64,000 bases of DNA, taken from Ziziphus jujuba (taxonomy: Eukaryota; Streptophyta; Magnoliopsida; Rosales; Rhamnaceae). Under the pieces are notes generated by a model. That model saw nothing but the letters and a program-made list of their open reading frames with translations. It was not told the DNA's origin and ran no database searches. The stretch covers positions 21,437,501 to 21,501,500 of the forward strand of contig NC_083390.1 of the NCBI RefSeq assembly GCF_031755915.1. Direction: 5' to 3'. Of this stretch, positions 1,075-30,527 are shown piece after piece. A program made the translations under genes and the position numbers. The stretch's first letter is position 1. Each line of letters starts with the position of its first letter.

Positions 1075-1686
1075 ATTTAGGCCCCTAATAAAAAAAGGAC
1101 GTTTATTGATGCGAGAATACCGGCGCTTGATCTGCTTCCATGCATCGAGAAAGCTGCTGGCTGGTTGCGTTGCAAGTCGAAGCAAACAAGCAGCAACATA
1201 AGCTCCAACAGCACACGTTACAGAATCATCCGCAGGCCAACGAATCCGATAACGACAATCTACTCCTCCTTCATTATCAGGATTATTAGTACTATGATTC
1301 CCTCTTAATGCAGTGTATTCTATGTCATCTGGGGTTGTGTTCGTGGGAATTATTGGAAAAACATATTTTCTCTCGGGACAATAATACAGATTCCACGCCG
1401 AAACCATTATAGCTCCAATGCTTCTATGAGAAACTGTTCCCTGCAATGAAGCCAAGCCTTCTTTGACAACAGGGGCCAATTGGGATGGAGTGGTATACCT
1501 TCTTAAGGCGATCCCTTTTAGATTCAGGAGATGATCATCTGTCCAGTCAAATTGACTCTTAGGACCTCGATGATCATAAGAACCGCCATACCAAGGGTGT
1601 GCTTGCAGAAGATTCTTCTTCATGTATGGTGCTGAGCTTTGGGAATTTGATTGCTCTTCCATTGAAGATGAAGCTGATGATGGCAT
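1075..1686 (-). pseudogene. RNL-1: rhabdovirus nucleocapsid-like gene, 5' half, interrupted by a Copia element
   Basis: The frame is open from an ATG at 1686; the start shared by the family (MEEQSN) is at 1662. It continues without a stop to the LTR junction at 1075, about 196 codons from MEEQ, and breaks just after the conserved IRGLN. Visible blocks shared with the other copies are DWTDDHLLNLKG, GTVSHRSIGAIMVSAWNLYY and DDSVTCAVGAYVAACLLRL. The family resembles the nucleocapsid of plant rhabdoviruses; that is inference from motif layout. The N-terminus (SQSSAPYMKKNLLQ) is shared with RNL-3 and, less closely, RNL-4, and defines one of two subfamilies. The 3' half should lie beyond the Copia element, left of the window. 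Apart from the insertion I see no frame damage, so loss of function may date from that event. Confidence 0.75.
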
Positions 1687-3504
1687 AGTGAGTTAAGACT
1701 GAGTACAAATACAATACTATTAAAAGAGACACCCTTTGGCTTTATCACTAAGCAATGAATCAATCTTGGTTTTTTTTTTTTTTTTTTTTCCTTGTTGGTA
1801 AAGAAAAATAAATAGAAGAGGAAGAGAGGGGGCAGGGAGCAATGGAAGAAGGAATGTGAAATGAATTATGCAAACGAGAAAAACTGTTATATATAAGAAA
1901 AAAAAATATTTATTAAAAAAATAAATAAATAATAAGCATATAAAAAGCTGAGTCTCATTCACTCTCACTGTCACTCTGCTTAAAGTCTACTACTTTCTTC
2001 TTCATTGAGGGGTCCCCAAGTTCCAAACTCCTTTCTTCCTATAACCATTAATGAAGATACAAGTCCCACATGCTCACCTTTAAGGGTCATTACTTTGCAC
2101 ATTATAAGTGGTGTTACTGGCAGTTACCTTTTTTTTTTTTTTTTTTTTTCATCTGTTTAAAGTTACCTTGGCTTTCTTTTTACAAAAAAGCTTATTTAAA
2201 AACAAAATAACAAATAATGAAAGTTATTTCAATTAATTCAGTAATTATTTTTAAAAGTACATTGCTACTACTTAATTTTGGTTTTGAAGAGTGGCTAGGC
2301 GGTAAGAATGTTTCCCCAACAAAATATTACTTAATTATCACGTTTTGTAACAAGCCAATAACTCATGCATTTTTATTCCTCTGCTTAATGTGAAACTGTG
2401 ATCTTTTTGGCCAAGAGAATGAGCATCTAAAATTAACGAAAGGTGATTAAGCATTTACAAAAGAAAAAAGACATAGGATAAAGAAACTAATGTACGATGA
2501 TGCCTCTTTCTCCTTTTGAAATTAGATGCGACTCCCATAACCATAACGCTAAGGAATGGAATGAATATAGAATTCTTAATTAGCAATGAAGTAAGGTCTA
2601 GACAATCAGATACACCCAAAAAAAAAAAAAAAAAAAAAAAAGGACAATCAGATCTGTCTCCTGAATGGATTTTCATTGGCAAAATAAATTCTTGAAAGCA
2701 GAACCAAAAAGACGGGCTACATGGAAGAAAAAGCTTCCTATAATATCATTTTCTACCTAGAATTAGTATTTGTTAAGAATAAAATAAATAGCTTAAGCTT
2801 TTGACAGAATAGTTATTTAATAAGGTATTAGAGCCAAAGATTACCTTGAGGTCTTAGACTTCGCAATAGCTTAAGCTTCTTAAGTAAATGGTAATTTAAA
2901 CAATATTTATATTGCAGAATTGCAATCCGTGAGTGTTTATTCATGCATACTTGATCCAAAATCATGAGATGCCCTGATCAGGTAAAGAATCATGATTTCG
3001 GGTATTGCTCTGTCCTAGCATTTTCCATACAAAGAATCTGCTTAATGTGAAGTCGGATCAAGATTCTGATATGCTAAGACTTCGATTAAGGTACATATAA
3101 TGCATAGTCCTCAAAAGGGTAGGGTAACCAGAAAACAACGAAAATCTTATGTTGTAAATAGTTTTACATTGAGATCCATATGGAATTTTACTGGTTATGA
3201 AACAGTTATGTAATTATATTCAATCGCTAAGGAATTATTTTGTACATGAAGAAGATCAATGTATAATCGGAAAAAAATTCATTCATGAACTGAACGAGGA
3301 AGGCTAACAAAGGAAACAAAGTGCTATAGAAGTACCAAAAAATATACCGTGCAAACATATAAGAACACCGTAGAGGGAGACTAAGTAAGCTCTCAATGAA
3401 TCGATGTAAACACCTCTGCAAGACAAGAAGCAACAAAACCATGATTAATGCACATTAGATTCAAAATTAGCTTGTTCTTTCCCTAAAATGCACCCACCCT
3501 TCTT
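1687..3504. other. spacer between RNL-1 and RNL-2
   Basis: No gene is supported. The spacer holds poly-T/A runs (about 1769-1790, 2131-2150, 2619-2641) and blocks recurring in the other array spacers: the segment after the RNL start near 1979-2070, the block near 2960-3060 with GAGATGCCCTGA, and the block near 3086-3130. A decayed PSS1 last-exon remnant is listed separately. Short frames here are AT-rich and unconserved between spacers. Confidence 0.7.
2475..2560 (-). pseudogene. decayed remnant of the PSS1 last exon in the RNL-1/RNL-2 spacer
   Basis: On the plus strand this stretch aligns by eye with PSS1 sequence from just beyond its stop codon into its last exon (about 31808-31895). Landmarks are GAAACTAATGTA against GAATTAATGTA, GCCTCTTTCTC, and GATGCGACTCCCATAACCA against GATGCAATTGCCAGGACCA. 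No frame survives. It is best read as a leftover of the duplication unit. Confidence 0.55.
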
Positions 3505-4619
3505 AACCGATTCTAATCAACTTCGAAGCAAAATGGTGGATTATGTTAAAAGCAAAAAATGATGATAATCTCTCGTCCGTTCTGGTATACATTGAATATG
3601 TACTATTTGACACACATCACCAACACCACCACCTTGATCCTCTAGCTCGCCCGTCTTCTTCGGAATCATAGCTAAAATGGAAGTGAGTTCGCTGCAGTTT
3701 TTAGTCTGGAGATCAGCAAACATTTGTTCATCAAACAAACGAGCGTACCTCCATGTCTGTCTTCTCTGTTTTTCATCATTTGAACCTTCAAAACTCAGTA
3801 AAATGGTATGAATCATCTTCAACAATTCAAAGCAACAGAAAGACCATCAAGGTATGCTTAATGCTTATCAGCAATTCTTCTAAACAGATTGTAACCATGC
3901 AGTCCGGTGAGTGAAAGATGTTGCTTGAATGCAAAACTAGCCAACCCTTTTACATTTCCTCTTAACTCATTGAAATAGTAAAGAAAACTTGATAATGTTT
4001 CTTCAACTCGGACCAGTTGGTCAATGCCATTCGAACAAACTCAAGGTTTCTTTCGATGGGGTTCAATCCCCTGATCTCAAAATGATGTTTGTTTAAATCA
4101 GAATACTGATTCTTGATGTGCTTCAAAGATTTGAGAAAGTTGCTGGCGGATTTGGTAGCAAGTCGAAGCAAACATGCACAAATAAAAGCTCCAACAGAGC
4201 AGGTTACAGAATCATCCACATGCCATTGAATATTTGCTCCTCCATTAGGATTATTAGAATTGGTACTAAAAGTACTCTGGCTTAGTGCAGTGAATCCTTG
4301 ATAATTTGGGGTTGTGCTAATTGGGATTTCTAGGAAAACATAATTTTTTTCAGGTAAAGAATACAGATTCCATGCAGAAACCATATTATAGCTCAATGTT
4401 CCATGAGAAACTGTTCCTTGCAAAGGCCAAACATTCTTCGATAATAGAGGCTAATTGGATCGGATAATTTTATCTTCTTAAAAATATTCCTTTTAAATTT
4501 ACCAGCTGATCATCGGTCCGATCTGACCTACTCTTAGGCCCTGATTGCAAATGATCAGGACTAGCAAAAGAAGATTATATTTTTGGAGATGATCTTTGAG
4601 CATTTAATTGTTCTTCCAT
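3505..4619 (-). pseudogene. RNL-2: rhabdovirus nucleocapsid-like pseudogene with several frameshifts
   Basis: Two frames carry the recognisable parts. One, 3962-4423, holds GTVSHGTLSYNMVSAWNLY, VDDSVTCSVGAFICACLL and HFEIRGLNPIERNLE. The other, 3541-3825, holds the C-terminal TWRYARLFDEQMFADLQTKN. Between them (3826-3961) the gene is out of frame and part of the region found in other copies is missing. The first ~65 codons (4424-4619) are badly decayed, although an ATG with MEEQ-like codons remains near 4619. Homology continues past the stop at 3541 to about 3505. The upstream block near 4782-4815 matches those of RNL-5, RNL-6 and RNL-8, which places it in the second subfamily. It cannot encode a full protein. 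Confidence 0.72.
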
Positions 4620-5039
4620 TTAAAAAAGCTCACCGATAATATACTCTGTGTTTACCTTCAGTGGGGGATAAATAAATATAATAAATAAAAAACAACAGCA
4701 ACAACAACACTAGGGAAAGAGACAAACCACATTAACAAATAAGTATGCATCCAAATAAAATACAAGAAAAAAAGAAAGAGCAGACCTTTCAGCAAGCTTT
4801 GGCTATGGCGGCTTCGTAACTTACAATAAATGTCATTACGTGACATACATACAGTTACATAAACAATCTACTTAATCAGACAGACAACTCGTTTATACTT
4901 CATAGATTGAACAATGGAGGCTAATTCAAAGTAAGCTCAATACCTATATAAAAACACCATATATAGAAGAAAATAATAATAGTATATCAAAGCCATTACC
5001 AAAAGCTTGTTTTCTGCCCTCAAAAGTTACCCACTTTCT
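4620..5039. other. short spacer between RNL-2 and RNL-3
   Basis: No gene. On the minus strand, 4782-4815 carries the block CCATAGCCAAAGCTTGC also seen upstream of RNL-5, RNL-6 and (one base different) RNL-8, where it looks like a 5'-UTR exon before a GT donor. The remaining sequence matches the 8700-9020 spacer in blocks. Confidence 0.6.
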
Positions 5040-6196
5040 TCACAATTTTCGTCTATTCGGAGCAAATTGCTGTATTATGTTAGAAGCAACTTGATTAAGG
5101 AAATCTCTTAAGAATTCCCTCCTATAGCTATTTTGAATATGTGATACGTAAGCCATCTCACCAGCACCTTCGTTCTCATCTATCCCTTTCAGAATCATAG
5201 CTAAAATGAAAGTGAGTTCACGGCAGTTTCCAGTCTGGAGGTCAACAAACTTTTCTTCATCAAACAGACGAGCATACTTCCATGTCTGCCTTCTCTGCTT
5301 ATCATCGGATGAACCATCAAAACTCTGTAAAATGGTGTTTATAATTTCCAGCCCACGTCGTGTCATTGGATGATCCAAGGCTAGAGAAAGATCAGCCGGT
5401 GTTGCATTAAGCTTTGCGGCAACTTTTTCAAACAGTTTGTTACCAAGCAGTGCAGTGAATGAAAGGTGCTGCTCGAATGCAAATATTGCATGCCCTTTGA
5501 TCCTTCCATGTAATTCATTGAAATGATAAAGAAACCTTGCTAATGTATTCGTGAAGATTGGCCATTCGTGCAACGCGACTCGAATGGAACTGAGATTTTC
5601 TTTAATAGGATTCAGTCCCCTAATCGAAAAAGGACGTCTATTAATGTCAGAATACTTTAGTCTTGATGTGATTCCATGCCTTGAGAAAGTTGCTGGCCGG
5701 CTTTGTAGCAAGTCGAAGCAAACAAGCAGCAACATAAGCTCCAACAGCACATGTTACAGAATCATCCAAGGCCAATGAATCTGATGATGATTATCTACTC
5801 CTCCTGCATTATCAGGATTATTAGTATTATTATTCCCTCTCAATGCACTGTAGTCTATGTCATCTGGGGTTGCGTTTGTGGGAGTTTCCGGGAAAACATA
5901 TGTTCTCCGTGGACTATAATACAGATTCCATGCAGAAACCAATATAGCTCCAACTGTTCTATGAGAAACTGTTCCATGCAATGAAGCCAAGCCTTCTTTG
6001 ACAACAGGGGCCAGTTGGGCTGGATTAGTGTACCTTCTCAAGACGATTCCTTTTAGATTCAGCAGATGATCATCTGTCCAGTCTGATTGACTTTTAGGCC
6101 TTGATGATTACAAAGACCGGCGTAAGAAGGGTGAGATTGCAGAAGATTCTTCTTCATGTATGGTGCTGAGCTTTGGGAATTTGATTGCCCTTCCAT
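5040..6196 (-). pseudogene. RNL-3: rhabdovirus nucleocapsid-like pseudogene with two frameshifts
   Basis: The start codon is at 6196 (MEGQSN, family start MEEQSN) and the reading ends at 5040. The body is spread over three frames. The N-terminus is in the frame ending near 6059, the middle is in 5754-6041, and the C-terminal 236 codons are in 5040-5750. The break near 5770 is a one-base loss: the codons before DDSVT lack one G relative to the other copies. A second break lies near 6090-6110. C-terminal landmarks are NELHGRIKG, FAFEQHLSFTALLGN and QTWKYARLFDEEKFVDLQT. Near-complete length with only two small indels suggests a fairly recent loss. Subfamily one. Confidence 0.75.
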
Positions 6197-9022: not shown

Positions 9023-9996
9023 ACCAGTTTTCATCTGTTGGAAGCAAATTGCTGGATTGTGTTAGAACCAACATGGTAAAGGAAATCTCTTAAAAAGTCC
9101 ATGGTATTTTGAATATGTAATATGTGATATCAACACTTTGGTCCCCACCCCTCTCTTTCATAATCATACCTAAAATGACAGCGAGGTCGCTGCAGTTTTT
9201 GGTCTGGAGGTGAGCAAACATTTTTGCATTAAACAAACGAGCATACTTCCATGTCTGCCTTCTCTGCTTATCATCAGTTGAACCTTCAAAACTCTGTGAA
9301 ATGGTGTTTAAGCCCACATCGTGTCATTCGATGATCCAAAGCTAGAGAAAGACCATCCGGTGTTGCTTTAAGCTTGGCAGCAACTCTTCTAAACAGATGG
9401 TAACTATGCAGCCCGGTCAGTGAAAGATGCTGCTCGAATGCAAATCTAGCAAACCCTTTGACGTTTCCTCTCAACTCATTGAAATGGTACAGAAACCCTG
9501 CAATGTGTTCGTGAACATTGGCCATTCGGACAATGCTGTTCGAATGGAATCCAGATTTTCTTCAACGGGATTCAGGCCCCGAATTGCAAAATGGCGATTG
9601 TTTAAATTAGAGTACCGACTCTTGGTGTTCCTCCATGAATTGAGAAAGTTGGTGGCTGGCTTGGTTGCAAGTCGAAGCAAAAAAGAAGCAATAGAAGCTC
9701 CAACAGCACCGATTACAGAATCATCCACAGGCCAATAAATCCTATGATCATCTACATCTCCTGAATTTTCAGGATTATTATTATTATTATTATTATTCCC
9801 TCTTAGTGCAGTGTAGTCTATGTCATCTGGGGTTGTGTTTGGAGGAATTTCTGGGAAAACATATTTCCTCTTGGGAAAATAGTACAGATTCCACACATAA
9901 ACCAATATAGCTCCAATGGTTCTATGAGAAACTTTTCCCTGCAATGAAGCCAAGCCTTCTTTTAACAACAGGGGGGCCAAGTGGGATGGAGTAGCA
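9023..9996 (-). pseudogene. RNL-4, 3' part: nucleocapsid-like pseudogene split by a Copia element
   Basis: This part covers the middle and C-terminus. One frame (to 9471) holds the SHRTIGAILVYVWNLYYFP block, the DDSVIGAVGASIASFLLRL block and RGLNPVEENLDSIR. A second (9286-9525) holds FLYHFNELRGNVKGF and FAFEQHLSLTGLHSYHLFRR. A third (9090-9317) holds QTWKYARLFNAKMFAHLQT. It therefore has at least two frameshifts, near 9310 and 9500, besides the insertion. Homology ends near 9023. The gene continues to the right of the Copia element at 15534. Confidence 0.75.
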
Positions 9997-10458
9997 TGTG
10001 AAGTCCAGCAGCACCACCACTGCACTGACAGTGTGAAGATTGCTCAGCCACCATTGTTGACAATGGTTTCTGCAATTAACACCGAAAATGGTTTGCTCAA
10101 CAATTGTGGGCACCTGTCAGAAGAAGTTGAAAATGGAAGACATGCACCGAATTTGTAAGCCTATAAATAGGCTCCATCCCGTTGCATGCAAGCCAAGCCA
10201 AGAGAGCAAGCTCAATATCATCCCAAGTGAGGAGTATTGAGAGTAAACTCCGAGAGAGAGAGTGTTTAAGTTCCAGAGAGAGCTTGAGAGAAGAGTGAGC
10301 AATTCCAAAGTGAATTTGATAGTGTAGAGAGAGGTTCCACATGAGAATCCTCCACGAGAGAAGTTTTATTTTTTGTATTCTATTTCCAAGAGAGTAATAG
10401 AATTCTTTTTATTTTTCTTCTCATATTTCTTCTCTAAAGTGGTCAGAGAACCACAACA
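9997..10458 (+). repeat. 5' LTR of the complete Copia element
   Basis: It begins TGTGAAGTCC and ends CACAACA. A TATA-like CCTATAAATAGG at about 10160-10171 should position the transcription start. A GA-rich tract follows (about 10250-10300). The 2-base gap to the tRNA-binding site at 10461 fixes the right boundary. Confidence 0.93.
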
Positions 10459-10460
10459 AG

Positions 10461-10478
10461 TGGTATCAGAGCTCCAGG
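10461..10478 (+). other. primer-binding site of the Copia element (initiator tRNA-Met)
   Basis: TGGTATCAGAGCTCCAGG starts two bases after the 5' LTR. TGGTATCAGAGC is the standard complement of the plant initiator methionine tRNA 3' end, used to prime minus-strand DNA synthesis. Confidence 0.92.
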
Positions 10479-11048
10479 TCGAGAGCTTGGGTTCAAAATT
10501 TGAAGAAACAGAGCATCTGTTCTTCAAGTTGGTGTTTCGAAAAGTTGCTCAAATAATTAATTTGACAATACCAGGTAAGATTACTCAACGAGACCGGAAC
10601 AACCAAGTTCTTCGGAGAGAAACGTAGAGCCTCACGCACCCGCACGCGCCGTCTGAAATTTTCTGCAGCAGATCACGTGCCGCACTCGCCGTCTGGAGGT
10701 TGAAGACGACCACGTCAGTAGACACGTCAGCGCAATCAGCCACGTCATCTGCCACGCTACCAGACACATCGCAACCACGCAATCGCCACATCAACAAAAT
10801 CTACCACGTCATCAGAATTTTCTGAAATTACGGAACAGCCCCTGAATTGTTGAAAATTATAGATTGACCCTTGTAGTTTCTGTATTTACAGGTTGACCCA
10901 AATTTTTTGTGAAATTATATTTTTGCCCCAAAAATTCTGGTAATTATATTTTGACCCCAGAAGAGTCAAGTCCACCATTTTTGGCCATTTCGGACACAAA
11001 GGTTAACTCCGTTTTGCCAAATTCGGCTCTATTTTCGATCAAGCCATA

Positions 11049-11749
11049 ATGTCAATGGAAAAATCATCTTCGGGAGCTATGGTTAAGCTCACTGCCACAA
11101 ACTATACACTTTGGAGACCTCAGATGGAAGATCTCCTCAATTGTAAGGATCTGTTTGATCCCAGCAAAGAAGCAGAAAACTCCGATCCCAGCAAAGAAGC
11201 AGAATGGAAGAAATTAAACAAGAAAACGATTGGTCAGATCAGGCAATGGATCGACCACAGTGTCTTCCATCATGTAGCGAAGGAAACGGATGCATATGCC
11301 CTCTGGACAAAATTGGAGGACATGTACCAGGCCAAGACTGCTCCGAACAAAGCCCTGTCGCTTAAGCAATTGGTAAATCTAAAATTACAGAGTGGAACTT
11401 CTGTAGCCGAGCATACCAGTGAGTTCCAGAGCTTGGTAAATCAATTATCTGCTGTGGATTACCAACTAGGGGATGAGGATCAGGCCCTCCTACTTCTAAG
11501 CTCTCTTCCAAACAGTTGGGAGACATTGGTAGTCTTTCTCAGCAATTCGGCCCCGAATGGCAAACTCACTATGTCTATGGTTAAGGATTCCCTATTTAAT
11601 GAAGAGGCCAGGAGAAAGGACATTGGCATGGATCAGTCACATGCCCTTGTCACAGAGAGAGGAAGACAGCAAAGAGGTGGTCGAGTAGGGGGAGAGGCAG
11701 GAGCAAGAGCAGAGGCAGATCTACAGACGGCAGAAAATCATTATATAAG
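11049..11749 (+). pseudogene. Copia gag (capsid) region
   Basis: The frame opens MSMEKSSSGAMVKLTATNY with TLWRPQMEDLL, the usual start of a Copia gag (UBN2-type) domain. The body includes ALWTKLEDMYQAK, LSLKQLVNLKLQSG and HTSEFQSLVNQL, and ends with an arginine/glycine-rich linker. The frame is lost just before the zinc knuckle, which lies in a different frame at 11750, so a small indel near 11700-11750 separates capsid from nucleocapsid. The short repeat DPSKEAENSDPSKEAE near residues 37-52 looks like a local duplication. The original protein would form the particle shell. Confidence 0.85.
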
Positions 11750-12259
11750 TGCTATCATTGTGGCCTGGAGGGTCACATGAAGAAGAACTGCAGAAAGTTG
11801 TTGAGAGAGCAGAGACTCCAAGGTAATCAGCCGAAGAAGGATGGAGAGACACTAGTCACTGTTACAGGAGAAGTGGCGCTCTGCTCCACCGAAGAAGAGA
11901 CATGCCTTCATATATCAACCCAAGATGTTGAGTGGATAGTCGATACTGCAGCATCCTACCATGTCACTCCACACAGAGATTTCTTCAAAACGTACAAAGC
12001 AGGAGACTTTGGTACGGTAAAGATGGAAAATTCCAGTTTCGCAAAAATTATGGGAACTGGTGATATTCAAGTAAAAACGAATGTTAGTTGTACAATCACT
12101 TTGAAGGATGTCCGTCATGTTCCAGATCTTCGGCTTAATCTACTTTCGGGAGCAGCTTTAGACAAGCAAGGCTATGACAACTACTTCAGCAAAGGCACAT
12201 GGAAAATGATGAAAGGTGCCATCTTTGTCGCCCGAGGACATATTTATGGAACGTTGTGA
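11750..12259 (+). pseudogene. Copia nucleocapsid zinc knuckle and aspartic protease region
   Basis: At 11750-11791 the translation reads CYHCGLEGHMKKNC, a CX2CX4HX4C zinc knuckle that binds retroelement RNA. The same frame continues to the protease, with VDTAASYHVT standing where Copia proteases have the catalytic D(S/T)GAS motif; here Gly is replaced by Ala. LKDVRHVPDLRLNLLS, the end of the protease domain, follows. The frame stops at 12259, and the continuing sequence is in another frame, so a frameshift lies near 12200-12260. Confidence 0.85.
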
Positions 12260-13565
12260 AGATATGTGCAGATAGCTTCAATATTGCAGAAGGAGAGGCG
12301 TCTCAAAATCTGTGGCACCAGAGACTCGGTCACATGAGTGAAAAAGGATTGTCCACTTTGGCAAGGAAGAAGCTTATCACTATTTGCAAGGATGCTGCGC
12401 TAGATCCTTGTAATCACTACTTGTTTGGTAAGCAACATAAAGCCTCCTTCAGTTCCTCTGCATCGAGAAGATTAGAGTTGCTTAGTCTAGTGCACTCTGA
12501 TGTTTGTGGTCCCATGGAGGTGGAATCATTAGGTGGCAACAAGTATTTCCTGACCTTCATTGATGATGCTTCTCGGAAGGTATGGGTATATTTCTTGAAG
12601 ACAAAGGACCAGGTATTAGATTACTTCAAACTGTTTCATACCATGGTAGAGCGTGAAACAAGAAAGAAGCTGAAATGTCTCCGCTCAGATAATGGAGGCG
12701 AGTATACTTCCAAGGAGTTCGTTGCCTACTGCAGAAGACATGGCATTCGACATGAGAAGACGGTCCCTCGTACCCCATAACATAATGGAATAGCCAAAAG
12801 AATGAACCAAACCATTATGGAAAATGTCAGAAGTATGATCAGTATGGCTAAGCTGCCAAAGCCATTCTGGGGAGAAGTTGTTCGTGCCGCCTGCTATTTA
12901 ATCAATAGATCACCGTCAGTACCATTGAATTTTGAAATTGCTGAAAAGGTGTGGTCGGGTAAGATTCCCTCCTACTCTCATTTAAGAGTGTTTGGTTGTT
13001 TAGCTTATGTACATGTATCCAAGGAGCTCAGACATAAGCTCGATGCAAGATCTACTCCATGCATCTTTATAGGATATGGAGATGAAGAATTCGGATACAG
13101 GTTATGGGACCTGAAAACAAAGAAGGTTATTAGAAGTAAGGATGTAGTATTCCATGAAAACCAGACAATGGAAAGCCCAGAATGTCTCCTAATTGTAGTT
13201 CTAGTGCTGAGAATTTTGGTCCTAATGCAGCACCAGTACAAATAGCCACAGAGGATAATGAGGTGCATGAAGATATACCAGAAGCAGACCAGGAGGAAGA
13301 AAGGGATATTGAGCAGGGAAAGACTCAATCCTCTCAAGCAGCTGCAGGGCCATCACAGCGGTCAGATGATGGTACACCTCCTGAAACTAGTGGTTTACAA
13401 GTTCGGAGATCTGAAGGAGGCCGAATTCCATCAAAGAGATTTCCAGAATCTGACTATATTCTGATTACTGAAGAGGGGGAGCCAGAGAGTTTCCAGGAAG
13501 CTATTTCTCATCAAGAGAAGGAAAAGTGGCTGCAAGTAATGCAAGATGAGATGGAATCCTTGTAG
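12199..13565 (+). pseudogene. Copia integrase region with internal stop codon
   Basis: The pre-integrase zinc domain reads LWHQRLGHMSEKGL with a distal CNHYLFGKQHK. The second Cys of the usual CxxC pair is Tyr, so zinc binding may be impaired. The catalytic core shows LVHSDVCGPM, FIDDASRKVWVYF and LRSDNGGEYTS with the D, D and E residues. An in-frame TAA at 12778-12780 falls inside the conserved RTP-HNGIA block, where Gln is usual (CAA to TAA). The frame resumes with MNQTIMENVRSM and shifts again near 13180 before the linker frame that ends with a TAG at 13563. Confidence 0.87.
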
Positions 13566-15038
13566 AAAAATCATACTCATGAGTTGGTTGAGCTTCCAAC
13601 ATGAAAGAAGGAACTAAAGAATAAATGGGTGTTCAAGCTCAAGAAAGATGGCAGCGGAAAGGGGGTGAAACACAAAACTTGATTGGTGGTCAAATGATTT
13701 CTTCAGAAGAAAGGAATTAACTTTGATGAGATTTTTTTACCAGTGGTAAAAATGACTTCAATTCGAGTCATTTTTGGTTTAGTAGTAAGTCTAAACCTAG
13801 AGCTTGAACAGATGGATGTGAAGACAGCATTTCTTCACGGTGATTTACATGAGGAAATCTACATGGCGCAGCCAGAAGGATTTGAGGTTTCAGGGAAAGA
13901 AAACCTAGTATGCAAGCTGAAAAAGAGCTTGTATGGCCTCAAGCAAGCACCAAGACAATGGTACAAGAAGTTTGACTTGTTTATGGTGAGTCAAGGCTAT
14001 AAAAGGACTGCAGCAGACCGGTGTGTTTATATTCAAAAATTTTCAGGTGGAAACTTCATTGCACTTTTGCTATATGTGGATGACATGTTGATCGTTGGAC
14101 AAGATGCAATGAAGATTAGTCAGCTGAAGAAAGAATTGTCTAAGTCCTTTTATATGAAAGACTTAGGACCAGCTCAACAAATTTTGGGAACGCAAATAAT
14201 TCAAGACAGGAAGAATAGAAGGTTATGGCTATCTCAAGAGAAGTATGTTGAACGGGTGATAAAGAGATTTAACATGGATAAAGCCAAACAGATCAGCATT
14301 CCACTTGCAAATCATTTCAAGTTGAGCAAGAGATTGTGCCCCTCATCCAAAGAAGAGATAGAGGAGATGGCTTCAGTACCATATTCTTCAGCGATAGAAA
14401 GTCTGATGTATGCAATGGTGTGTACTAGACCAGACATTGCTCACGCAGTAGGTGTTGTGAGCAGATTTCTTTCAAATCCTGAAAAGAAATACTGGGAAGC
14501 AGTCAAATGGATTCTCAAGTATCTTAAAGGTACATCGAAGCTGTGCTTGTGCTACGGGGGAGGTGATCCAATCCTAGAAGGCTATACAGATGCAGATATG
14601 GCTGGAGACCCTGATAATAGAAAGTCTACATCAGGTTATCTCTACCCTTTTGCGAGGGGAGCTGTGTCATGGCAGTCAAGATTGCAGAAGTGTGTTGCTT
14701 TATCCACTACTGAAGCAGAGTACATTACTGCAGCGGAAGCGGGTAAGGAAATGTTATGGTTAAAGCGTTTTCTCATGGAATTGGGCATCAAGCAAGAAGA
14801 CTACAAGATACATTGTGATAACCAAAGTGCCATGGATTTGAGCAAAAACTTAATGTATCATTCCCATACAAAGTACATTGACATCCGCTATCATTGGATA
14901 CGCGAAGTAATAGATCAACAGTTGCTGAAATTGATGAAGATCCACACAAAAGAGAATCCAGCAGACATGTTAACAAAAGTTGTTGCTCAAGAGAAGCTGA
15001 AGCTGTGTAGAGACATAGCTGGAATGGATGGCAAATGA
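13566..15038 (+). pseudogene. Copia reverse transcriptase and RNase H region
   Basis: The reverse transcriptase start (NKWVFKLKKDGSGKG) is broken by three TGA codons between 13600 and 13700, in the same frame as the open stretch 13743-15038. That stretch holds MDVKTAFLHGDLHEEIYM, LKKSLYGLKQAPRQWYKKFD and the catalytic LLYVDDMLIVG. The RNase H domain follows: YTDADMAGDPDNRKSTSG, ALSTTEAEYI and NPADMLTK. The stops look like simple transitions. The 431-codon open part is well preserved and matches the left element. Confidence 0.9.
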
Positions 15039-15055
15039 CCATCAGTTTTTAAATG

Positions 15056-15070
15056 CGGCTGGAGGGGGAG
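15056..15070 (+). other. polypurine tract of the Copia element
   Basis: The purine-rich GGAGGGGGAG just before the 3' LTR start at 15074 is the expected primer site for plus-strand DNA. The same tract precedes the LTR at 636. Confidence 0.85.
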
Positions 15071-15073
15071 AAT

Positions 15074-15533
15074 TGTGAAGTCCAGCCGCACCACCATTGC
15101 ACTGACAGTGTGAAGATTGCTCAACCACCATTGTTTACAATGGTTGCTGCAATTAATATCGAAAATGGTTTGCTCAACAATTGTGGGCACCTGTCAGAAG
15201 AAGTTGAAAATGGAGGATATGCACCAAATTTGTAAGCCTATAAATAAGCTCCATCCCGTTGCATGCAAGCCAAGCTAAGAGAGCAAGCTCAATATCATCC
15301 CAAGTGAGGAGTATTGAGAGTAAACTCCGAGAGAGAGTGTTTAAGTTCCAGAGAGAGCTTGAGAGAAAAGTGAGCAATTCCAAAGAGAATTTGATAGTGT
15401 AGAGAGAGGATCCACGTGAGAATCCTCCATGAGAGAAGTTTTATTTTTTGTATTCTATTTCCAAGAGAGTAATAGAATTTTTTTTATTTTTCTTCTCATA
15501 TTTCTTCTCTAAAGTGGTCAGAGAACCACAACA
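15074..15533 (+). repeat. 3' LTR of the complete Copia element
   Basis: Same ends as the 5' LTR (TGTGAAG and ACAACA). About 18 substitutions and one GA-repeat indel separate the two. The TATA-like box reads CCTATAAATAAGC here, one base changed. The next 5 bases are the presumed target duplication. Confidence 0.93.
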
Positions 15534-15711
15534 TAACACACCTTCTCAAGATGATTCCTTTTAGATTCAGCAGACGATCATTTGTCCAGTCTGATTGACT
15601 GTTAGGCCCACGACGATGATGAAGAATACATTGACAGGCATAAAAAGAATGTGCTTGCAGAAGATTCTTCTTGCTTGGTGTTGAGCTTTGGGAACTTAAT
15701 TGTTCTTCCAT
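15534..15711 (-). pseudogene. RNL-4, 5' part (start codon side)
   Basis: The ATG at 15711 begins MEEQLSSQSS, followed by KKNLLQAHSFYA as in RNL-1 and RNL-3. SDWTNDRLLNLKGIILRR follows, then the Copia LTR. It joins in order to 9996 on the other side of the element. Without the Copia insertion the N-terminal frame would run on; downstream frameshifts at 9310 and 9500 would still disable the gene. Confidence 0.78.
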
Positions 15712-18057: not shown

Positions 18058-19173
18058 TTAAGCAGTTCTCGATGTCTTCGAAGCAAAATGCTGGACTACC
18101 CTAGAAGCAACCCGCCGATGGTAATCTCTACGCGGTTCCGCTATTCTTTGAAGATGTACTATTTGAGACACATCACCAAAACCGCCATCTTGATCCTCTT
18201 CCATCTTCTTCAGAATCATAGCTAGAATGGAAGTGAGTTCGGTGCAGTGTTTAGTCTGGAGATGAGCAAACATTTGGTGATTGAACAAATGAGCATATCT
18301 CCATGTCTGCCTTCTCTGCTTCTCATCATCTGAACCTTCAAAATTCTGTAAAATGGTGTTTATCATCTCCAACCCAGTCCGAGTCGTTGGCAGTTTCAAC
18401 ACTGCAGAGAGTTCATCCGGGTTTGCTTCAAGCTTATCAGCAACTCTTCTAAACAGATTGTAACTATGCAGTCCAACGAGTGAAAGATGTTGCTCGAATG
18501 CAAATCTAGCCAACCTTTTTACATTTCCTCTCAACTCATTGAAATGGTAAACAAACCTCGTCAGTGTATTCTGGTACGGCGACGGGTTGGTGAATCTTAT
18601 TCGAACAGTTTCAAGGTTTTCTTCAACGGGGTTCAGTCCCCGAATCTCAAGACGATGTTTGTTGAAATCCCAATACCGATTCTTGATGTTCCCCCAAGAT
18701 TTGAGAAAGTTGCTGGCGGGTTTGGTAGCAAGCCGAAGCAAACATGCACAAACATAAGCTCCAACACAACAGGTTACAGAATCAGTCAAAGGCCATAGAA
18801 TCTCTGCTGCTCCATCCGGATTATTAGGATTGGTTTTAAAAGGTAATGCGGTGAATTCTTCATCATCTGGGGTTGTGTTTGCGAGAATTTCGGGGAAAAC
18901 ATATTTCCCCTCGGGAATATAATACAGATTCCAAGCAGAAACCATTATAGCTCCGATGGTTCTCTGAGTTACTGTTCCTTGCAAAGATGCCAAACCTTCT
19001 TTGACAATAGGTGCTAACTATGTTGGATCATTATATCTTCTCAAAACAATTCCTTTCAAATTCAGCAGCCGATCATCGGTCCAGTCAGACCCATTTACAG
19101 GCCCAAACCCTAAAACCACATCTCGAAGATCAGCAAACCAAGTTGAGATTTGGGCATTTGATTGTTCTTCCAT
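18058..19173 (-). pseudogene. RNL-5: full-length nucleocapsid-like gene with one in-frame stop
   Basis: The start is the ATG at 19173 (MEEQSNAQIS) and the stop is at 18058, 372 codons. The only lesion I see is TAG at 19018-19020 in the block NDPT-LAPIVKEGL, where RNL-6 has CAG (Gln), so one C-to-T change inactivated it. After the stop, 311 codons from an internal Met (18993) are open and contain TIGAIMVSAWNLYYIPEGK, SVTCCVGAYVCACLLRLATK, FAFEQHLSLVGLHSYNLFRR and QTWRYAHLFNHQMFAHLQT. Reinitiation could give a shortened protein; that is speculation. It lacks the roughly 30-residue lysine-containing segment found near the N-terminus of RNL-6. A TRIM lies in what looks like its 5'-UTR intron. Confidence 0.8.
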
Positions 19174-19363: not shown

Positions 19364-19542
19364 TGTAACGGCCCAGTCCACCAGCATCAAGATATTGTCC
19401 GCTTTGGGGTATTTCAGGCCGTAGCCCCCCTCACGGTTTTGTTTTTGCCAGTCCACTGGCAAAAGGCCTTTTGAAGGGAAAGCTATCCACACGCTTATAA
19501 GCCATGCTTCGTTCCCCTTTCTAACCGATGTGGGATGTTACA
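19364..19542 (-). repeat. TRIM LTR (3' LTR in element orientation)
   Basis: It differs from its partner at 19609-19788 by roughly ten substitutions and a one-base indel by eye. It contains the CACACGCTTATAAGCCATGC segment. Confidence 0.9.
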
Positions 19543-19608: not shown

Positions 19609-19788
19609 TGTAACGGCCCAGTTCACCCGCATCAAGATATTGTCCGCTTTGAGGTATTCCAGGCCGTAGCCCCCCTCATGGTTTTGTTTCTGCCAGTCCC
19701 ACTGGCAAAAGGCCTCTTGAAGGGAAAGGTATCCACATGCTTATAAGTCATGCTTCGTTCCCCTTTCCAACCGATGTGGGATGTTACA
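19609..19788 (-). repeat. TRIM LTR (5' LTR in element orientation)
   Basis: Same ends as the other repeat. The primer-binding site begins one to three bases past its inner end. Confidence 0.9.
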
Positions 19789-22480: not shown

Positions 22481-23689
22481 TTAGCCAGTTCTCTTAGCAA
22501 ATTTCTGGATTACCTCCGAAGCAATCTTTTGAAAACGATCTTGGTTATATTCCAGCGTACCTCGAATCTGTTCTATTTGAGACACATCACCATCACCACC
22601 TTGGTCGTCACCTATCTCCTTCAGAATCATAGCTAAAATGGAAGTCAGGACCCTGCACTTTTTAGTCTGAAGATGAGCAAACATTTGGTGATCGAACAAA
22701 CGAGCATACCTCCATGTCTGTCTTCTCTGCTTTTCATCATTTGAACCTTCAAAATTCTGGAAAATTGTGTATATCATCTCCAACCCATAATGATCGTCTG
22801 TACAATACAAAGCTACAATAAGATCATCTTGGTTTGCTTCAAGCTTATCAGCAACTCTTCTAAACAGATGGTAACCATGCAATCCAGTGAGTGAAAGATG
22901 TTGCTCGAATGCAAATCTAGCCAACCCTTTCACATTTCCTCTCAACTCATTGAAATGGTAAACAAACCTCGATAATGTCTCCTTAAACGGGGACCAGTAG
23001 GAGAATACCATTCGAACAGCTTCAAGATTTCCTTCAACGGGGTTCAGTCCCCGAATCACAAAACGACGTTTGTTGAAATCCCAATACCGATTCTTGATGT
23101 TCCCCCAAGATTTGAGAAAGTTGCTGGGGGGTTTGGTAGCAAGCCGAAGCAAACAATCACAAACATAAGCTCCAACACAACAGGTTGCAGAATCATCCAA
23201 AGGCCATAGAATCTCTGCTGCTCCATCTGGATTATTAGGATTGGTTGTAATAGGACTTTGGTCAAATGCAGTGAATTCTTCATCATCTGGGGTTGTGTTT
23301 GTGGGAATTTCCGGGAAAACATATTTCCCCTCGGGAATATAATACAGATTCCATGCAGAAACCATTATAGCTCCGATGGTTCTACGAGTTACTGTTCCTT
23401 GCAAGGAGGCCAAACCTTCTTTGACAATAGGTGCTAACTGTGTTGGACTATCATATCTTCTCAAAACGATTCCTTTCAAATTCAGCAGCCGATCATCGGT
23501 CCAATCAGACCTACTTTCAGGTTCAAGACTAAATCTTGGCAAACCAGCAAACCTAGGATGTACATACCACAATAATTCATCAGGGATTTCAAATATGTCT
23601 TCTTTTTTTTGCTTTTTATTTGGATGAACAATTTCAAATGAGTCATCTTGTTGAGAAGCAGAGCTTTGGGCATTTGATTGTTCTTCCAT
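22481..23689 (-). CDS. RNL-6: intact rhabdovirus nucleocapsid-like protein, 402 residues
   Basis: This is the only complete frame of the family here. I chose the ATG at 23689 (MEEQSNAQSS) because every well-preserved copy but RNL-8 keeps MEEQ or MEGQ; the frame stays open 27 codons further upstream into low-complexity sequence. Features seen: a lysine cluster KKQKK at residues 25-29 that could be a nuclear signal; DWTDDRLLNLKGIVLRRY at 62-79; IGAIMVSAWNLYY at 105-117; CCVGAYVCDCLLRLATK at 170-186; RGLNPVE at 213-219; FAFEQHLSLTGL at 259-270; and QTWRYARLFD at 324-333. No signal peptide or membrane segment is seen. The ordering of these blocks, especially the WRYARxFD...LQxxxC end, recalls cytorhabdovirus/varicosavirus nucleocapsid proteins, which coat viral RNA. 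Identity is inferred from memory of the family. It may be a domesticated protein or a young relic. Confidence 0.75.
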   Translation of the reverse strand: MEEQSNAQSSASQQDDSFEIVHPNKKQKKEDIFEIPDELLWYVHPRFAGLPRFSLEPESRSDWTDDRLLNLKGIVLRRYDSPTQLAPIVKEGLASLQGTVTRRTIGAIMVSAWNLYYIPEGKYVFPEIPTNTTPDDEEFTAFDQSPITTNPNNPDGAAEILWPLDDSATCCVGAYVCDCLLRLATKPPSNFLKSWGNIKNRYWDFNKRRFVIRGLNPVEGNLEAVRMVFSYWSPFKETLSRFVYHFNELRGNVKGLARFAFEQHLSLTGLHGYHLFRRVADKLEANQDDLIVALYCTDDHYGLEMIYTIFQNFEGSNDEKQRRQTWRYARLFDHQMFAHLQTKKCRVLTSILAMILKEIGDDQGGDGDVSQIEQIRGTLEYNQDRFQKIASEVIQKFAKRTG

Positions 23690-24195: not shown

Positions 24196-24226
<31 letters not shown>

Positions 24227-26453
24227 GTTTAGAAGCTTTTCTGGAAATCTGAAGCTCTTTTATAAAAGAGAAAATGCTTGGTGCTAAATTAGTTTAATTG
24301 CTCCATTGCCATTTGAAAAAAAAATAAATAAAAAATAAAAAATAAAAAACCACAGGAGAGCAGAGGAGAAAGCAAAGAAACCATTATTACATGGCACTTT
24401 TACGTAGTAGGTTGATTAAAAAATGGAACACAACAATTCGTTTAAATATGCATTTCTTCAAACCCACAGCAGCAAAACTGAGAAAAAATAGTAATAATAA
24501 TAAAAAATATATACACAGGTAATTGAAATTGTAAAATACATGTTTGCCCCCAATGTTATTTGATTAGTCCCAGTCATGACTGTCAAAATGTGTATCATAT
24601 TGTATGACATTTTATTTAAAAAATGATACTATGGTAAGATACACCCACGCTCATAATTTTATGTAATGTATTAGATATATATTATTCATAAAGATGAGAA
24701 ACAGAGTAATTATATGTCCTTAGTGTTCCAAAAAAATCTATTATAAAGATGAAAAGCAGAGTAAAGAAAAAAAAAAAAATTTGTCAGTGCAGATGTGATA
24801 GTATAGTTGTAGGACTATTAAAAGAAAGGGTATTGTTATGTCATTAATTTTTTTTTTTTTGTTTTTTTTTTGGGAAAACTAATTGTAATGTCAGCATGGC
24901 GATCAATTTTAACACCGTTATCAGGAATTAAATTAATTTATAACAATGAAACTTCAGTCTAATTGGTAGAAATCAAAAATTCATAACTGAAATCATATAA
25001 CTCTAAAATTTCAAGATACCCAAATATAATTTATCCTAAAAAAGACGTTTATAATAAATTATAATTGTGATTGAGGAAGAAAAAGGACAAGTAGAGAGGA
25101 AAACTACGGAGTTTAAATAATTGTCTTTAATTGTTATTTTAGAAACTAGAAATATGGTTCTCATAAGCTCGGCACAGTGGTTGTATCATTTAAAGTATAC
25201 CTCTAAATTCAAGTTCAATCCTTAATGTAGGTGAAAAATCTCCCTCCTCTAATGTGTTCGACTCCTATTGTACAACACAAATACAAAGACCTCAAGCATT
25301 GTTTCTTTTCCCAGACTTTTTTCTTTTCTTTTCATTTTTCCTTGGCAAAGTTGAAGCATCTCATGCATGTGCAACACAAATACAAGGACCTGAAGCATTG
25401 TTTCCTTTCCTGACTTTATTCTTTTCTTTTCTTTTCATTTTTTCCTTGGCAAAGTTGAAGCATCTTCTTTCTTCTCTGCAAATTAATCTCTCTCTTTTTT
25501 TCTTTTTTTTTTCCCTTTGGTTGTATGCATACCAGAAGTATCGGTCGGTACATTTTTTATGTATTACAATGAAATTTCCAATACAGTGAAATTTTCGATA
25601 CATCTAACAATTTGTACTCAAATGCCATTGAGATGATACATATGGAACTCTCGATAACATTGACCACAAGTGATAACCCTCACTGTTGGATTCAAATAGA
25701 GTTGGAGATAAAAAAATCCCTCCTGATCCCCCAATTTAACATGTTCAAGAAAAATTATTATTTAATTATATATAAGATCGGAACAATTCAAATGACAATG
25801 AGCTCCCAAAACCTTTTGCGGTAAACAAGTCATGCATTTTTCCCAGTCAAGAAATTGTTCTCTCGGCCAGGAGAATAAGCATTTACAACCAACAAAGTTG
25901 ATCCTAGGCAACAACAAATTTCTTGAGGGTGGCCTCCTGGTAGAAAAAACTGTCCTAGAATACCATTTTCTACCTAGCATTAATGCTATACTACTGCAGA
26001 ATTTCAAGGGGCTTAGCTTAAGCTTACCATCCATGAGCATTTATTCAGACATCCTTAATTCAAATTCATGAGATAGCCCTGGGCTCTCTGGTCTAGGATT
26101 TTCTATAATTGAAATCTGCTTAATGCGAAGTTTCGGATCAAGGTTCTAATAAGCTAAGATGCTCAATTAAGGTACATGCAATGCATAGTCCTCAAAAGTA
26201 TACCAGAAAACAACTAAAATCATGTTCTACATGGTTTTAGAAAGGTATCCATGGAAAAAACTTAATATAAGACAGATTTAAAACATAAAAGCATTAACAC
26301 AATTCTCTGTTACTCCACAGAGGCATTAAAATAATAAATACTGCTAGCATACAAGAACACCATAGTAAACAAACTCACAATGATAACATCTCTGCATGAC
26401 AATAGGCAACAAAACAGTGATAAACTATAGATATACACACATAAAATTACGAT
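23881..26453. other. spacer between RNL-6 and RNL-7
   Basis: No gene. It includes a T19-G22 homopolymer junction (24187-24227, listed separately), the CCATTGCCATTTGAAAA block near 24303 shared with 28197 and 31351, an A/T-rich segment 24500-25150, and a pyrimidine-rich segment 25230-25520 that carries an imperfect direct repeat of about 110 bp (near 25264-25360 and 25370-25460). From 25840 the shared spacer blocks resume. Confidence 0.6.
24187..24227 (+). repeat. homopolymer junction T19 followed by G22
   Basis: Nineteen T are followed immediately by 22 G. The length may be unreliable in any assembly. Confidence 0.9.
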
Positions 26454-27050
26454 TCAGAAATAGCTTGTTCCTCCCTCAAATGTCACCACCTTTGACTCTT
26501 CGTAAGCAGTTCTTGTCGTCGTCGAAGCAAAACGCTGGGTTATGAGAGAACCAACATCCCAATGATAATATCTCTCCTGTTCCGTTATACGTTGAACCTG
26601 TGCTATTTGAGACACATAACCATCGACACATTGGTCCTCACCTATCTCCTTCAGAATCATAGCTAAAACGGAAGTCAGAACCATGCAGTTTTTGGTCTGG
26701 AGATGAGGAAACATTTGTGCATCAAACAAATGAGCATACTTCCATGTCTTGTCTTCTCTGGTTTTCATCATCTGAACCTTCAAAATTCTATAAAATGTGA
26801 TTATCATCTCCAACCCACACCGAGTCATTGGACAATTCAACTCTACAGAAAGATCATCTGGGTTTGCTTCGAGCTTATTATCAGCAACAATTCTAAACAG
26901 ATAGTAACTATACAGTCCTGGGAGTGAAAGATGTTGCTCGAATGCAAATCTAGCTAACCGTTTTACATTTCCTCTTAACTCATTGAAATGGTAAAGAAAC
27001 CTCGATAATGTATTCCTGAACAAGGACCATTTGCTGAACGCCATTTGTAT
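26454..27050 (-). pseudogene. RNL-7: 5'-truncated nucleocapsid-like copy joined to a PSS1 fragment
   Basis: Only the C-terminal half remains, about 200 codons ending at 26454. Landmarks are NTLSRFLYHFNELRGNVK, FAFEQHLSLPGLYSYYLFR and TWKYAHLFDAQMFPHLQTKN. Between about 26740 and 26800 the residues differ completely from the other copies, then return to frame, which fits two compensating indels. Upstream, homology stops near 27050 and the sequence passes directly into a copy of the PSS1 3' end in the same orientation. It has no family start codon. Confidence 0.75.
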
Positions 27051-27239
27051 ACCTTGGTGCAAAATCATTGCCTCTTTTTCTTAAGAGTTTGATGCAATTG
27101 CCAAGACCAAACAATCAGGAATACAACATGCAGGTCCTGCAGATACCCAGAAGACTACGAGCCTCAATGGCATGGATTTAGCACATAATCCCGGTAGAAT
27201 CAGTAAAAAGAAGGTCATCTAGGTCCGTGAAAACCAAGT

Positions 27240-27278
<39 letters not shown>

Positions 27279-27460
27279 TTTTTCATAAAATGAACCACCC
27301 ATTACCGAATTCGATGCGAATAAGAATTTCAACAATACAAATAGCAACAAGAAGCCAACAAAATGTGCCTTCCTACTTCACTGTTTTTAGGAAAAATTGA
27401 GACAGAAAGCAACAGAAGGAAAAAAAAACACAGGTCCAGGTGCATTTCACAAATTTGTTT
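27051..27460 (-). pseudogene. duplicated 3' fragment of PSS1 (last two exons)
   Basis: The plus-strand sequence from GTGCAAAATCATTGCC at about 27056 matches PSS1 from 31828 onward: the last exon (27060-27200 against 31835-31962), the intron, and the penultimate exon (about 27300-27395 against 32090-32178). Intron and splice sites are largely kept, so this is a genomic duplication and not a retrocopy. The intron carries a TA/T microsatellite (27244-27283). Several substitutions and small changes break the frame. The match fades near 27460, inside the region corresponding to PSS1 intron 11. Confidence 0.85.
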
Positions 27461-29390
27461 CTCTTTTCTTTTTTTCTTTTTTTCCTTTTTCTTTTTTTTT
27501 TTTTTATTGTTTTGGTTATAGAAGAGCCCAAACAGTTTCGAAAGCCCGTTCTTTTCTAATGGGGTTATTCGGGTCCCTTTTGTAATTAACCATTTACCCT
27601 TATGGGTTCCCATATGATTTTTTTTGTTATATAAAGTGTTTTCAAGGGAAGAAAATAAGAAGGAAAAATAAGAGAGAAGAGGGGAAAAAAAAAAAAAAAA
27701 AAAAAAAGAACACTTCTTGTTTGTTCTTCGTTAATTCAGTTTTGACTACACACTCTGTATTTACACAAGAAACAAGTCCGTGGACTTACACTAGGCACCA
27801 CATATCCAAGACAGCTCCAAACATGATGAGCAGTTTACAATCCACTCAATATTCACAGAATCCCCCATTTGATCCCCCTGTATAGTCGTCCCATTTGATC
27901 TGGGCCCACCCCTGTTCGAATCTTAAATCCTCATAAATAATATTTCAGATGCCATGTCAAACAAACATGCAAGAAAATTGTCAACAGCAAGATGAAAAAA
28001 GGGTCTTCTGAAAGTATTTTTCTTTGGCAACTGAAGCTTGTACTTTACAGAAACCAAACTGACCACTCAGAACTCCGGTAACTTTATGTTAAATAAAATA
28101 ACCTCAAAAAAAAAAAAAAAAAGCGTTTTGAGCTAGAGAAATGCTTGTACCAACCGTCATATTTTTGAGAGGTGGTTACTTTTAAACCATAATTGTTTCA
28201 TTGCCATTTGAAAAATAAATAAAAATAAAAAAACAAAAGAGAGCAGAAGAGAAAACCAAGAAACCATTATTACATGGCACTTCTTTATATAGCAGGGTTA
28301 TCAAAAAATGGAACACAACAATTTGTATATACATTGCTTGATTCATACGACAAAACTGAAAAAAAAAAAAAAATAGTAATAATAATAAATAAAATAATAT
28401 ATATTGAAATTATAAAATGGCGCATTCTCGGACGAGGGAAAAATTTGCTGACGATGAGAAAATTATTATTTAATTAATATAGGATCGCATCGAAACAGTT
28501 TAATGATAATGAGTGCCTAAAACCTTTTGTGACAAACTAGTAAGTCATGCATTTTTCCCAATCTTCTGTGCTCAAGAAACTATGATCTCTCGGCCAGGAT
28601 ATTAAGCATCTACAGCAAACAAAGTTGACCTTTGGCCCCAAAAAAAATAAATAAATAAATAAAAATTCTTGAGAGTGTTGGGAGTCCTGGAAGATTAAGC
28701 TTCCTATAATACCATTTTCTAACTAGCATTAACGTTATACTGCTGCAGAATTACAAGGGGCTTTGCAAGCTTATCCTCCATGAGCATTTATTCAGATCCT
28801 TAATTCAAATTCATGTGATAGCCTTGAAATAATCGGGTAAAGAAGCATGATATGGGGTTTGATTTGGGGTTTTAGCGCTCTCTGTTCTAGGATTTTCTAT
28901 AATCAAAATCTGCTTAGCACGATGTAATGCACAGTCCTCAAAAGGATTGCAGACAACAACTAAAATCATGTTTTACATAGTTTTAGGTTGGAATCCAATG
29001 GATACTAATGTTTTTAAACCAGTTGTGTAATTATTCAAACAACTAAAGAATTATGATGTGCATGCATTTTAAGATCTATGTACGATCAGATGACATTTCA
29101 GAGACTCAAGGAAACAAAGTGTCTAGCTTAAAAGGCCATGGAAAAGACTTAATATAAGACACAAATTTATTACATACAAGCATTAAGACAATTCTCTGTT
29201 TCTCCATACATGTATTAAAATAATAATACTGCTAGAATACAAGAACACCATAGTAGACAAGCCCTCAACGATAACAGCTCTACGAGAGAATAAGCAACAA
29301 AACCATGATAAACTATATATATACACAAAAAAAAACAAAAAATTAAGATTCAGAAACAGCTTGTTCTTCCCTCAAATGCAACAACCCTTC
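27461..29390. other. spacer between the PSS1 fragment and RNL-8
   Basis: No gene. T/A-rich runs lie at 27466-27507 and 27686-27707. The interval 27930-28220 matches the flank at 31130-31360, and 28220-28480 matches 24330-24540 and 31400-31620. The usual array spacer blocks follow (28570-29300). Confidence 0.65.
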
Positions 29391-30527
29391 TTAACCAGTT
29401 CTCGTCGTCTTCGAAGCAAATTTCTGGATTACCCTAGAAGCAATCTCCTGGTGCAAATTTCTAGTCGATTCGGGTATAGATTGAATCTCTACTATTTGAG
29501 ACACATCACCAGCACCGCCTTGGTCATCACCAATCTCCTTCAGAATCATAGCTAAAATAGAAGTCAGATCCTTGCAGTTTTTAGTCTGGAGATGACCAAA
29601 CATTTGTGCATCAAACAATCGAGCGTACCTTCATGTCTGCCTACTCTGGTTTTCATCATTTGAACCTTCAAGCTTCTGTAAAATGGTGTCTATCATCTCC
29701 AACCCACGCTGAGTTACTGAACTATTCAACTCTACGGAAAGATCATCTGGGTTGGCTTCGAGCTTATCAGTTACTCTTCTAAACAGTTTGTAACTATGCA
29801 ATCCAGTGAGTGAAAGATGTTGCTCGAATGCAAATCTAGCCAACCCTTTTGCATTTCCTCTTAACTCATTGAAATGGTAAACAAACCTCGACAATGTATT
29901 GTTGAACGAGGACGGGTTGCTGAACTCCATTTGAACAAGTTCAAGGTTTTCTTGAATGGGGTTCAGTCCCTGAATCTCAAAATGACGTTTGTTTAAATCA
30001 GAATACCGATTTTTGATGTTAACCCAAGCCCTAAGCAAGTTGCAGGCGGGTTTGGTTGCAAGCCGAAGCAAACATGCACAAACATAAGCTCCCACGGCGC
30101 AGGTTACAGAATCATCCACAGGCCATTGAATTTCTGCTCCTCCATTTGGATTATTAGAATTGGTGACACAAGGACTCTGGCTTAATGCAGTGAATTCTAC
30201 ATCATCCGGGGTTGTGTTTATGGGGATTTCTGGGAAAACATATTTCCTATCGGTTACACTATACAGATTCCATGCAGAAACCATGATAGCGCCAATGGTT
30301 CTATGAGAAACATTTTCTTGCAACGAGGTCAAACCTTCTTTGACGATAGTGGCTAATTGGGTTGGATTATTATATCTTCTCAAAACGATTCCTTTTAAAT
30401 TCAGCAGCCGATCATCTGTCCAATCAGACTTACTTTGGGGCTGTGGTACTGTAACACGAACACCGGAAAATATAGAATTTATTTTCTCACGATCATTACT
30501 CATAAGGATTTCAACTATGTCTTCCAT
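29391..30527 (-). pseudogene. RNL-8: full-length nucleocapsid-like gene with one in-frame stop
   Basis: The ATG at 30527 starts MEDIVEIL and the reading ends at 29391, 379 codons. The single lesion is TGA at 29631-29633 inside the conserved SRQT-RYARLFD block, where the other copies have TGG. The protein upstream of the stop (about 298 residues) keeps SDWTDDRLLNLKGIVLRRYN, TIGAIMVSAWNLYSVTDR, DDSVTCAVGAYVCACLLRL and FAFEQHLSLTGLHSYKLFRR. Compared with RNL-6, the first ~29 residues including the lysine cluster are missing, so the start codon directly adjoins an EDIxEI segment. The upstream block at 30690-30715 again suggests a 5'-UTR exon. The copy lies nearest PSS1. Confidence 0.8.

Follow-up and report, generated by a model that had tools for sequence, protein, structure and literature searches.

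A tandem array of rhabdovirus nucleocapsid-like genes in Ziziphus jujuba with signs of past purifying selection

Chromosomal sequences related to the nucleocapsid (N or CP) of cytorhabdoviruses and varicosaviruses have been described in plants as RNLS1 to RNLS4 (Chiba et al. 2011, PMC3136472). According to the accessible part of that article, the varicosavirus-related sequences, among them those of apple and cucumber, make up the RNLS1 group, and two motifs, GmH and YaRifdxxxfxxLQtkxC, are named for RNLS and viral N. So far, plant RNLS have been described mainly as insertions recording old infections. Among viruses, Didymochlaena virus 1 is classed as a varicosavirus in the available portion of PMC9608074. 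Animal genomes provide a further point of comparison: a bornavirus-like L gene of bats (PMC4865735) and planthopper toti-like elements (PMC10636211), as presented in excerpts of these two sources, are captured RNA-virus genes that have an open frame and came under selection once captured.

The array described here lies in a window of 64,000 nucleotides of the Z. jujuba genome (contig NC_083390.1, positions 21,437,501 to 21,501,500) and resembles RNLS in being a chromosomal N-related sequence with both conserved motifs. However, it differs from the RNLS covered by the accessible part of PMC3136472 by its eight same-strand copies, its duplicated host spacers and its past purifying selection, and the word "tandem" is absent from the main text of that article, whose accessible part does not mention jujube. 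This is in line with the preliminary description, which regarded endogenous N-like sequences as known from plants and a dense array as unusual. With the N protein of Didymochlaena virus 1, as far as PMC9608074 was available, the array shares a match to the full PF03216 profile, 29–33% identity to the plant rows and a similar length (386 versus 402 residues). In contrast to this virus, it is located in a plant chromosome, lacks a viral junction and is accompanied by neither an L gene nor other viral genes among the open reading frames of the window. The animal cases share the open frame and post-capture selection but, in the portions of PMC4865735 and PMC10636211 at hand, differ in host, viral gene and arrangement, as the jujube genes are a tandem family of rhabdovirus N in a plant, known here from sequence alone. 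A literature search by locus names, with thin coverage of subscription journals, found no title on the jujube array. The RNLS class itself has been known since 2011; new here are a tandem family grown in the host, past selection at the protein level and a relative in a second plant tribe. With a selected, host-grown N-like family, one could test whether nucleocapsid genes captured by plants become functional host proteins.

A tblastn search of the whole window with the intact copy R6, together with the listing of open reading frames, reveals eight related loci (R1 to R8), all on the minus strand, between positions 1075 and 30524. The copies display 48–76% identity to R6, and the weakest E-value among the array pieces is 3e-7. 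R6 (22484–23689) is the sole intact member with an open frame of 402 codons, and the other seven copies are broken or cut. Both the number of same-strand copies and the presence of one intact member agree with the preliminary description, while its copy-to-copy distance of 1–7 kb is only approximate: measured from low end to low end, R2 and R3 are 1.5 kb apart, but R4 and R5 are separated by 8.9 kb.

Three of the eight copies belong to clade A. R1 (1075–1662; 57.5% identity by tblastn; PF03216 at 2.9e-13) comprises codons 1–216 in R6 numbering and ends at codon 216, where the end of a retroelement begins (element edge at 1074). R3 (5061–6107) carries one in-frame stop within the aligned stretch (PF03216 at 1e-31 for the piece 5043–5753). 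The main part of R4 (9129–9998) contains four stops (PF03216 at 1.3e-15 for 9474–9998) and is interrupted towards its 5' end by the insertion of another retroelement, beyond which a remnant of 22 codons (codons 57–78) is found at 15541–15606, the piece with the weakest E-value. Clade B is represented in the window by R2, R5, R6, R7 and R8. R2 (3568–4568) is distributed over three frames with two stops (PF03216 at 4e-14 for 3965–4450), whereas R5 (18070–19101; 75.8% identity by tblastn; PF03216 at 1.4e-54) has a single in-frame stop within its aligned part. R7 (26517–27056) consists of codons 223–401 only, its first 222 codons being absent (PF03216 at 3.6e-26 for 26457–27080). R8 (29406–30524; 66.9% identity by tblastn; PF03216 at 1.9e-42 for 29634–30755) has one in-frame stop and is located nearest to the flanking phosphatidylserine synthase gene. 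An N-terminal insertion in R6 (23500–23630) with a basic KKQKK stretch is absent from the Rhamnella protein described below and from the other aligned jujube rows. Upstream of R5, a direct duplication of 180 bases is observed (19364–19542 and 19609–19788, 93% identical).

The Pfam profile of the rhabdovirus nucleoprotein, PF03216, is found in all eight copies with a lowest score of 50.4 bits at a cut-off of 25. Moreover, the two motifs named for RNLS and viral N are present in R6 as GLH and YARLFDHQMFAHLQTKKC. The preliminary description had argued that the order of conserved blocks fits N proteins of cytorhabdovirus- or varicosavirus-like viruses and had suggested a profile search of R6 and a comparison of its predicted structure with rhabdovirus N. 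Both results support that assignment. For R6, PF03216 (2e-50) is the only family above the cut-off, by which an ordinary plant protein family is ruled out. Compared with a library of viral structures, the top ten matches of the R6 model (m6834da060099) are all nucleoproteins of plant viruses, with E-values from 4e-11 to 7e-8, and the best match is the N protein of an uncultured varicosavirus; this fold evidence rests on a low-confidence model with a mean pLDDT of 59. An earlier model computed from six close rows reached a pLDDT of 38 and was set aside. The array belongs to the endogenous rhabdovirus N-like sequences (RNLS), probably on the varicosavirus side.

Other collections contributed no further relatives. 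Searching IMG/VR with the jujube profile gave 61 pattern-matching stretches with no relative among them, phage records held none, and PHROGs yielded nothing better than an E-value of 0.27. Solved structures gave no match by sequence and a single profile match at chance level, and Rfam gave no match at gathering scores. The varicosavirus gene junction expected at the end of the N gene was not found anywhere in the window, even when one mismatch was allowed; insertions that are old or derived from mRNA need not retain it. On sequence evidence, the flanking phosphatidylserine synthase and other plant genes, the contig size of 26.9 Mb and the interruption by retroelements place the array in the chromosome of a plant rather than in an infecting virus.

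A first protein search returned six proteins: R6, the open reading frames of R5 and R8, the annotated jujube proteins LOC107429412 and LOC112493057, and FNV43_RR26688 of Rhamnella rubrinervis (371 residues), which is 62% identical to R6 over 99%. R6, the two other jujube proteins and the Rhamnella protein all have frames that stay open over some 350 to 402 codons, despite an identity to R6 of 58–62%. Within the window, LOC107429412 and LOC112493057 are most similar to R1 (76% and 79%, respectively), and at this identity they represent further copies, which brings the family to at least ten; they are probably located on the same chromosome as R6, as their contig has the same length (26,948,440). 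A search with the profile brought in a JGI protein, P0008 (483 residues, PF03216 at 7e-53), encoded on a contig of 4634 bases, perhaps from an undescribed varicosavirus-like segment. With P0008 as query, one further protein was obtained, the N protein of Didymochlaena virus 1, the only named virus found by sequence. The published RNLS proteins of apple, cucumber and poplar were not among the matches; as these protein searches need shared exact words, their absence does not prove that they are distant.

In the protein tree, all plant rows group together (100/100), apart from the only two viral rows included. Clade A (R1, R3, R4, P0005 and P0006) is supported at 99/99, and the Rhamnella protein joins it with a support of 28/47, or 48/67 if fragments are omitted. 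The Rhamnella protein is approximately equidistant from clades A and B, at about the distance that separates A from B. Thus, the split between the two jujube clades is comparable in depth to their separation from Rhamnella. Ziziphus belongs to the Paliureae and Rhamnella to the Rhamneae, two tribes of the Rhamnaceae. The portions of PMC12218201 and PMC9797102 at hand gave no date for the Ziziphus–Rhamnella split. The rate of 6.2e-9 per site per generation given for jujube LTRs in the accessible part of PMC9797102 can be applied to the A–B divergence, where dS lies between 0.61 and 0.72 for 10 of the 14 pairs and between 0.49 and 1.16 overall; a rough estimate is about 50 million generations.

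Comparison of the flanks confirms the related spacers of the preliminary description and shows homologous downstream spacers in the same order across the copies, even between the clades. Within clade B, the spacers of R2 and R5 are 75.5% identical over 617 columns and those of R7 and R8 72% over 558 columns. Between clades A and B, the spacers of R4 and R5 match at 84% over 136 columns (E 4e-34) and those of R4 and R7 at 70% over 295 columns (E 1e-28). Next to R8, part of a phosphatidylserine synthase gene is located on the minus strand (31827–34867), with PF03034 matches in the open reading frames at 32246–32644 (7e-26), 33510–33824 (4e-13) and 34598–34867 (2e-7), which confirms the housekeeping neighbour noted earlier. 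The host sequence downstream of this gene (31110–31611, minus strand) recurs at 27937–28448 with 72% identity over 547 columns. Moreover, the 3' end of the synthase is present a second time in degraded form (27057–27456, minus strand), joined to R7 about eight bases past the synthase stop codon; it is 76% identical to 31827–32252, which can be read as the last two exons of the synthase gene. At this joint, the frame of R7 starts with an ATG overlapping the stop codon of the synthase copy. Collinear spacers and a piece of the synthase copied along with the N-like genes indicate that the array arose by tandem duplication and grew in the plant, and the side of the synthase is likely its founder end.

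Upstream of the copies the two clades differ. A block of 17 bases is found with up to three mismatches in front of R2, R5, R6 and R8, that is, four of the five clade B copies (0.14 expected by chance); R7 falls outside this set because it lacks the 5' half. The block looks like the end of a putative 5' noncoding exon with its splice donor. The upstream sequence of clade A is different, and in the alignment the likeness between A and B appears limited to some 25 bases before the start codon.

Selection was analysed in the eight window copies with a codon model of the GY type (F3x4, free kappa), in which omega is an average over the codons mapped onto R6 by tblastn and gene conversion between copies is not modelled. 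A single omega for all copies amounts to 0.63. With two classes, omega is 0.39 on the internal and 0.72 on the terminal branches, with likelihood-ratio statistics against 1 of 18.7 and 10.4, respectively. If the branch between A and B is treated separately, its omega is 0.37 (p 0.0025) and that of the internal branches within the clades 0.42 (p 0.016); a second topology gave 0.36 (p 0.0005) and 0.39 (p 0.015). Among 100 simulations with an internal omega of 1, none was as low as 0.391, the lowest value being 0.65 and the largest likelihood-ratio statistic 5.7. Constraint thus holds for the older, internal branches of the copy tree. On the terminal branches of R1 to R4 the values are 0.44 (p 0.06), 0.58 (p 0.015), 0.64 (p 0.07) and 0.84 (p 0.50), and on those of R5 to R8 0.78 (p 0.43), 0.66 (p 0.17), 1.59 (p 0.19) and 0.63 (p 0.15), the p-values being uncorrected for eight tests. 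Separate terminal omegas did not fit better than a shared one (p 0.25). R6 is not significantly below 1 on its own branch, and the pairwise omega of R6 and R7 is near 1 (1.03). In drift simulations that assume substitutions only and a given base composition, R6 stayed free of stops in 0.35% of 2000 runs along its own branch, and in none of 2000 runs since the ancestor of clade B.

Purifying selection on the internal branches implies that the gene was constrained after its capture and served as a host gene, and past selection as a host protein is probable. This suggests that the plant maintained a working captured gene over a long period until most of the window copies decayed. Alternatively, the array could be a plain viral fossil, in which one captured N gene multiplied solely because its surroundings favoured unequal exchange, without ever serving the host, and the frame of R6 is open by luck. 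The disruption of seven of the eight copies, the lack of an omega significantly below 1 on the branch of R6 and the presence of two retroelements and a synthase fragment among the copies would fit such a history. However, the low internal omega, which no null simulation reproduced, the long open frames in R6, two further jujube proteins and Rhamnella, and the stops acquired in every drift run since the ancestor of clade B make it improbable.

Separate captures of related viruses as the sources of clades A and B and of the Rhamnella gene are less probable again. They would assign part of the low omega to selection acting in the virus instead of the plant, and are consistent with the different upstream sequences of A and B, the weakly supported order of A, B and Rhamnella and the few viral rows. 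On the other hand, A and B share homologous, collinear spacers on the downstream side, the branches within the clades retain a low omega, and viral proteins are only 28–33% identical to the plant ones, far below the identity of the plant copies to R6. Viral insertions in plants are discussed in general as a source of small RNAs, and many broken, similar copies kept at one place would suit transcripts of the array that silence related viruses irrespective of any protein, but constraint on the old branches follows the amino acids and no inverted arrangement is seen within the window, all copies being on one strand, so that this reading is very improbable.

Most likely, the copies form an ancient host gene family that descends from a virus and was shaped by birth and death; confidence is high in the viral origin and in growth by duplication in the plant. 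Homology shows that the N gene of a varicosavirus-like rhabdovirus entered the genome of a jujube ancestor; reverse transcription of the N mRNA is the probable route, and the first site might have been downstream of the phosphatidylserine synthase gene. As the shared, collinear spacers show, the N-like gene and its flanks then multiplied into the same-strand array by tandem duplication, with purifying selection acting on the protein during growth; later, seven of the eight window copies broke, while R6, the two annotated jujube relatives and one Rhamnella copy stayed open. As the most likely mechanism, the N-like protein might keep the RNA-binding N fold and hinder the nucleocapsid assembly of infecting rhabdoviruses. 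This antiviral mechanism is tentative when taken by itself, while the overall course from capture through growth under selection to later decay is favoured on balance. A more specific version is rather doubtful: a single capture before the split of Paliureae and Rhamneae, which turned into a host gene that has a promoter and a 5' noncoding exon of its own, expanded into a birth-and-death array like plant resistance genes and supplied decoy nucleocapsids against rhabdoviruses. If true, it would amount to protein-level antiviral immunity in a plant from a captured virus gene.

The retroelement within R4 (9997–15533, plus strand) is bounded by LTRs at 9997–10458 and 15074–15533, which are 95.7% identical, and four of five flanking bases match; its open reading frames suggest an element of the copia kind. 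With LTRs differing by 4.3% and the LTR rate taken from the accessible part of PMC9797102, its insertion may be roughly 3.6 million generations old. The element end that abuts R1 (1–1074) is 89% similar to 14438–15533 of the R4 element, so that two members of one retroelement family are inserted in copies of the array. Beyond the synthase gene, open reading frames on the minus strand between 51996 and 59242 match PF00035 (2e-12) and, below the cut-off, helicase profiles, and may belong to a DEAH-type RNA helicase gene. Close to the end of the window, an exon of a class I fructose-bisphosphate aldolase is located on the minus strand at 63422–63724 (PF00274, 2.7e-36).
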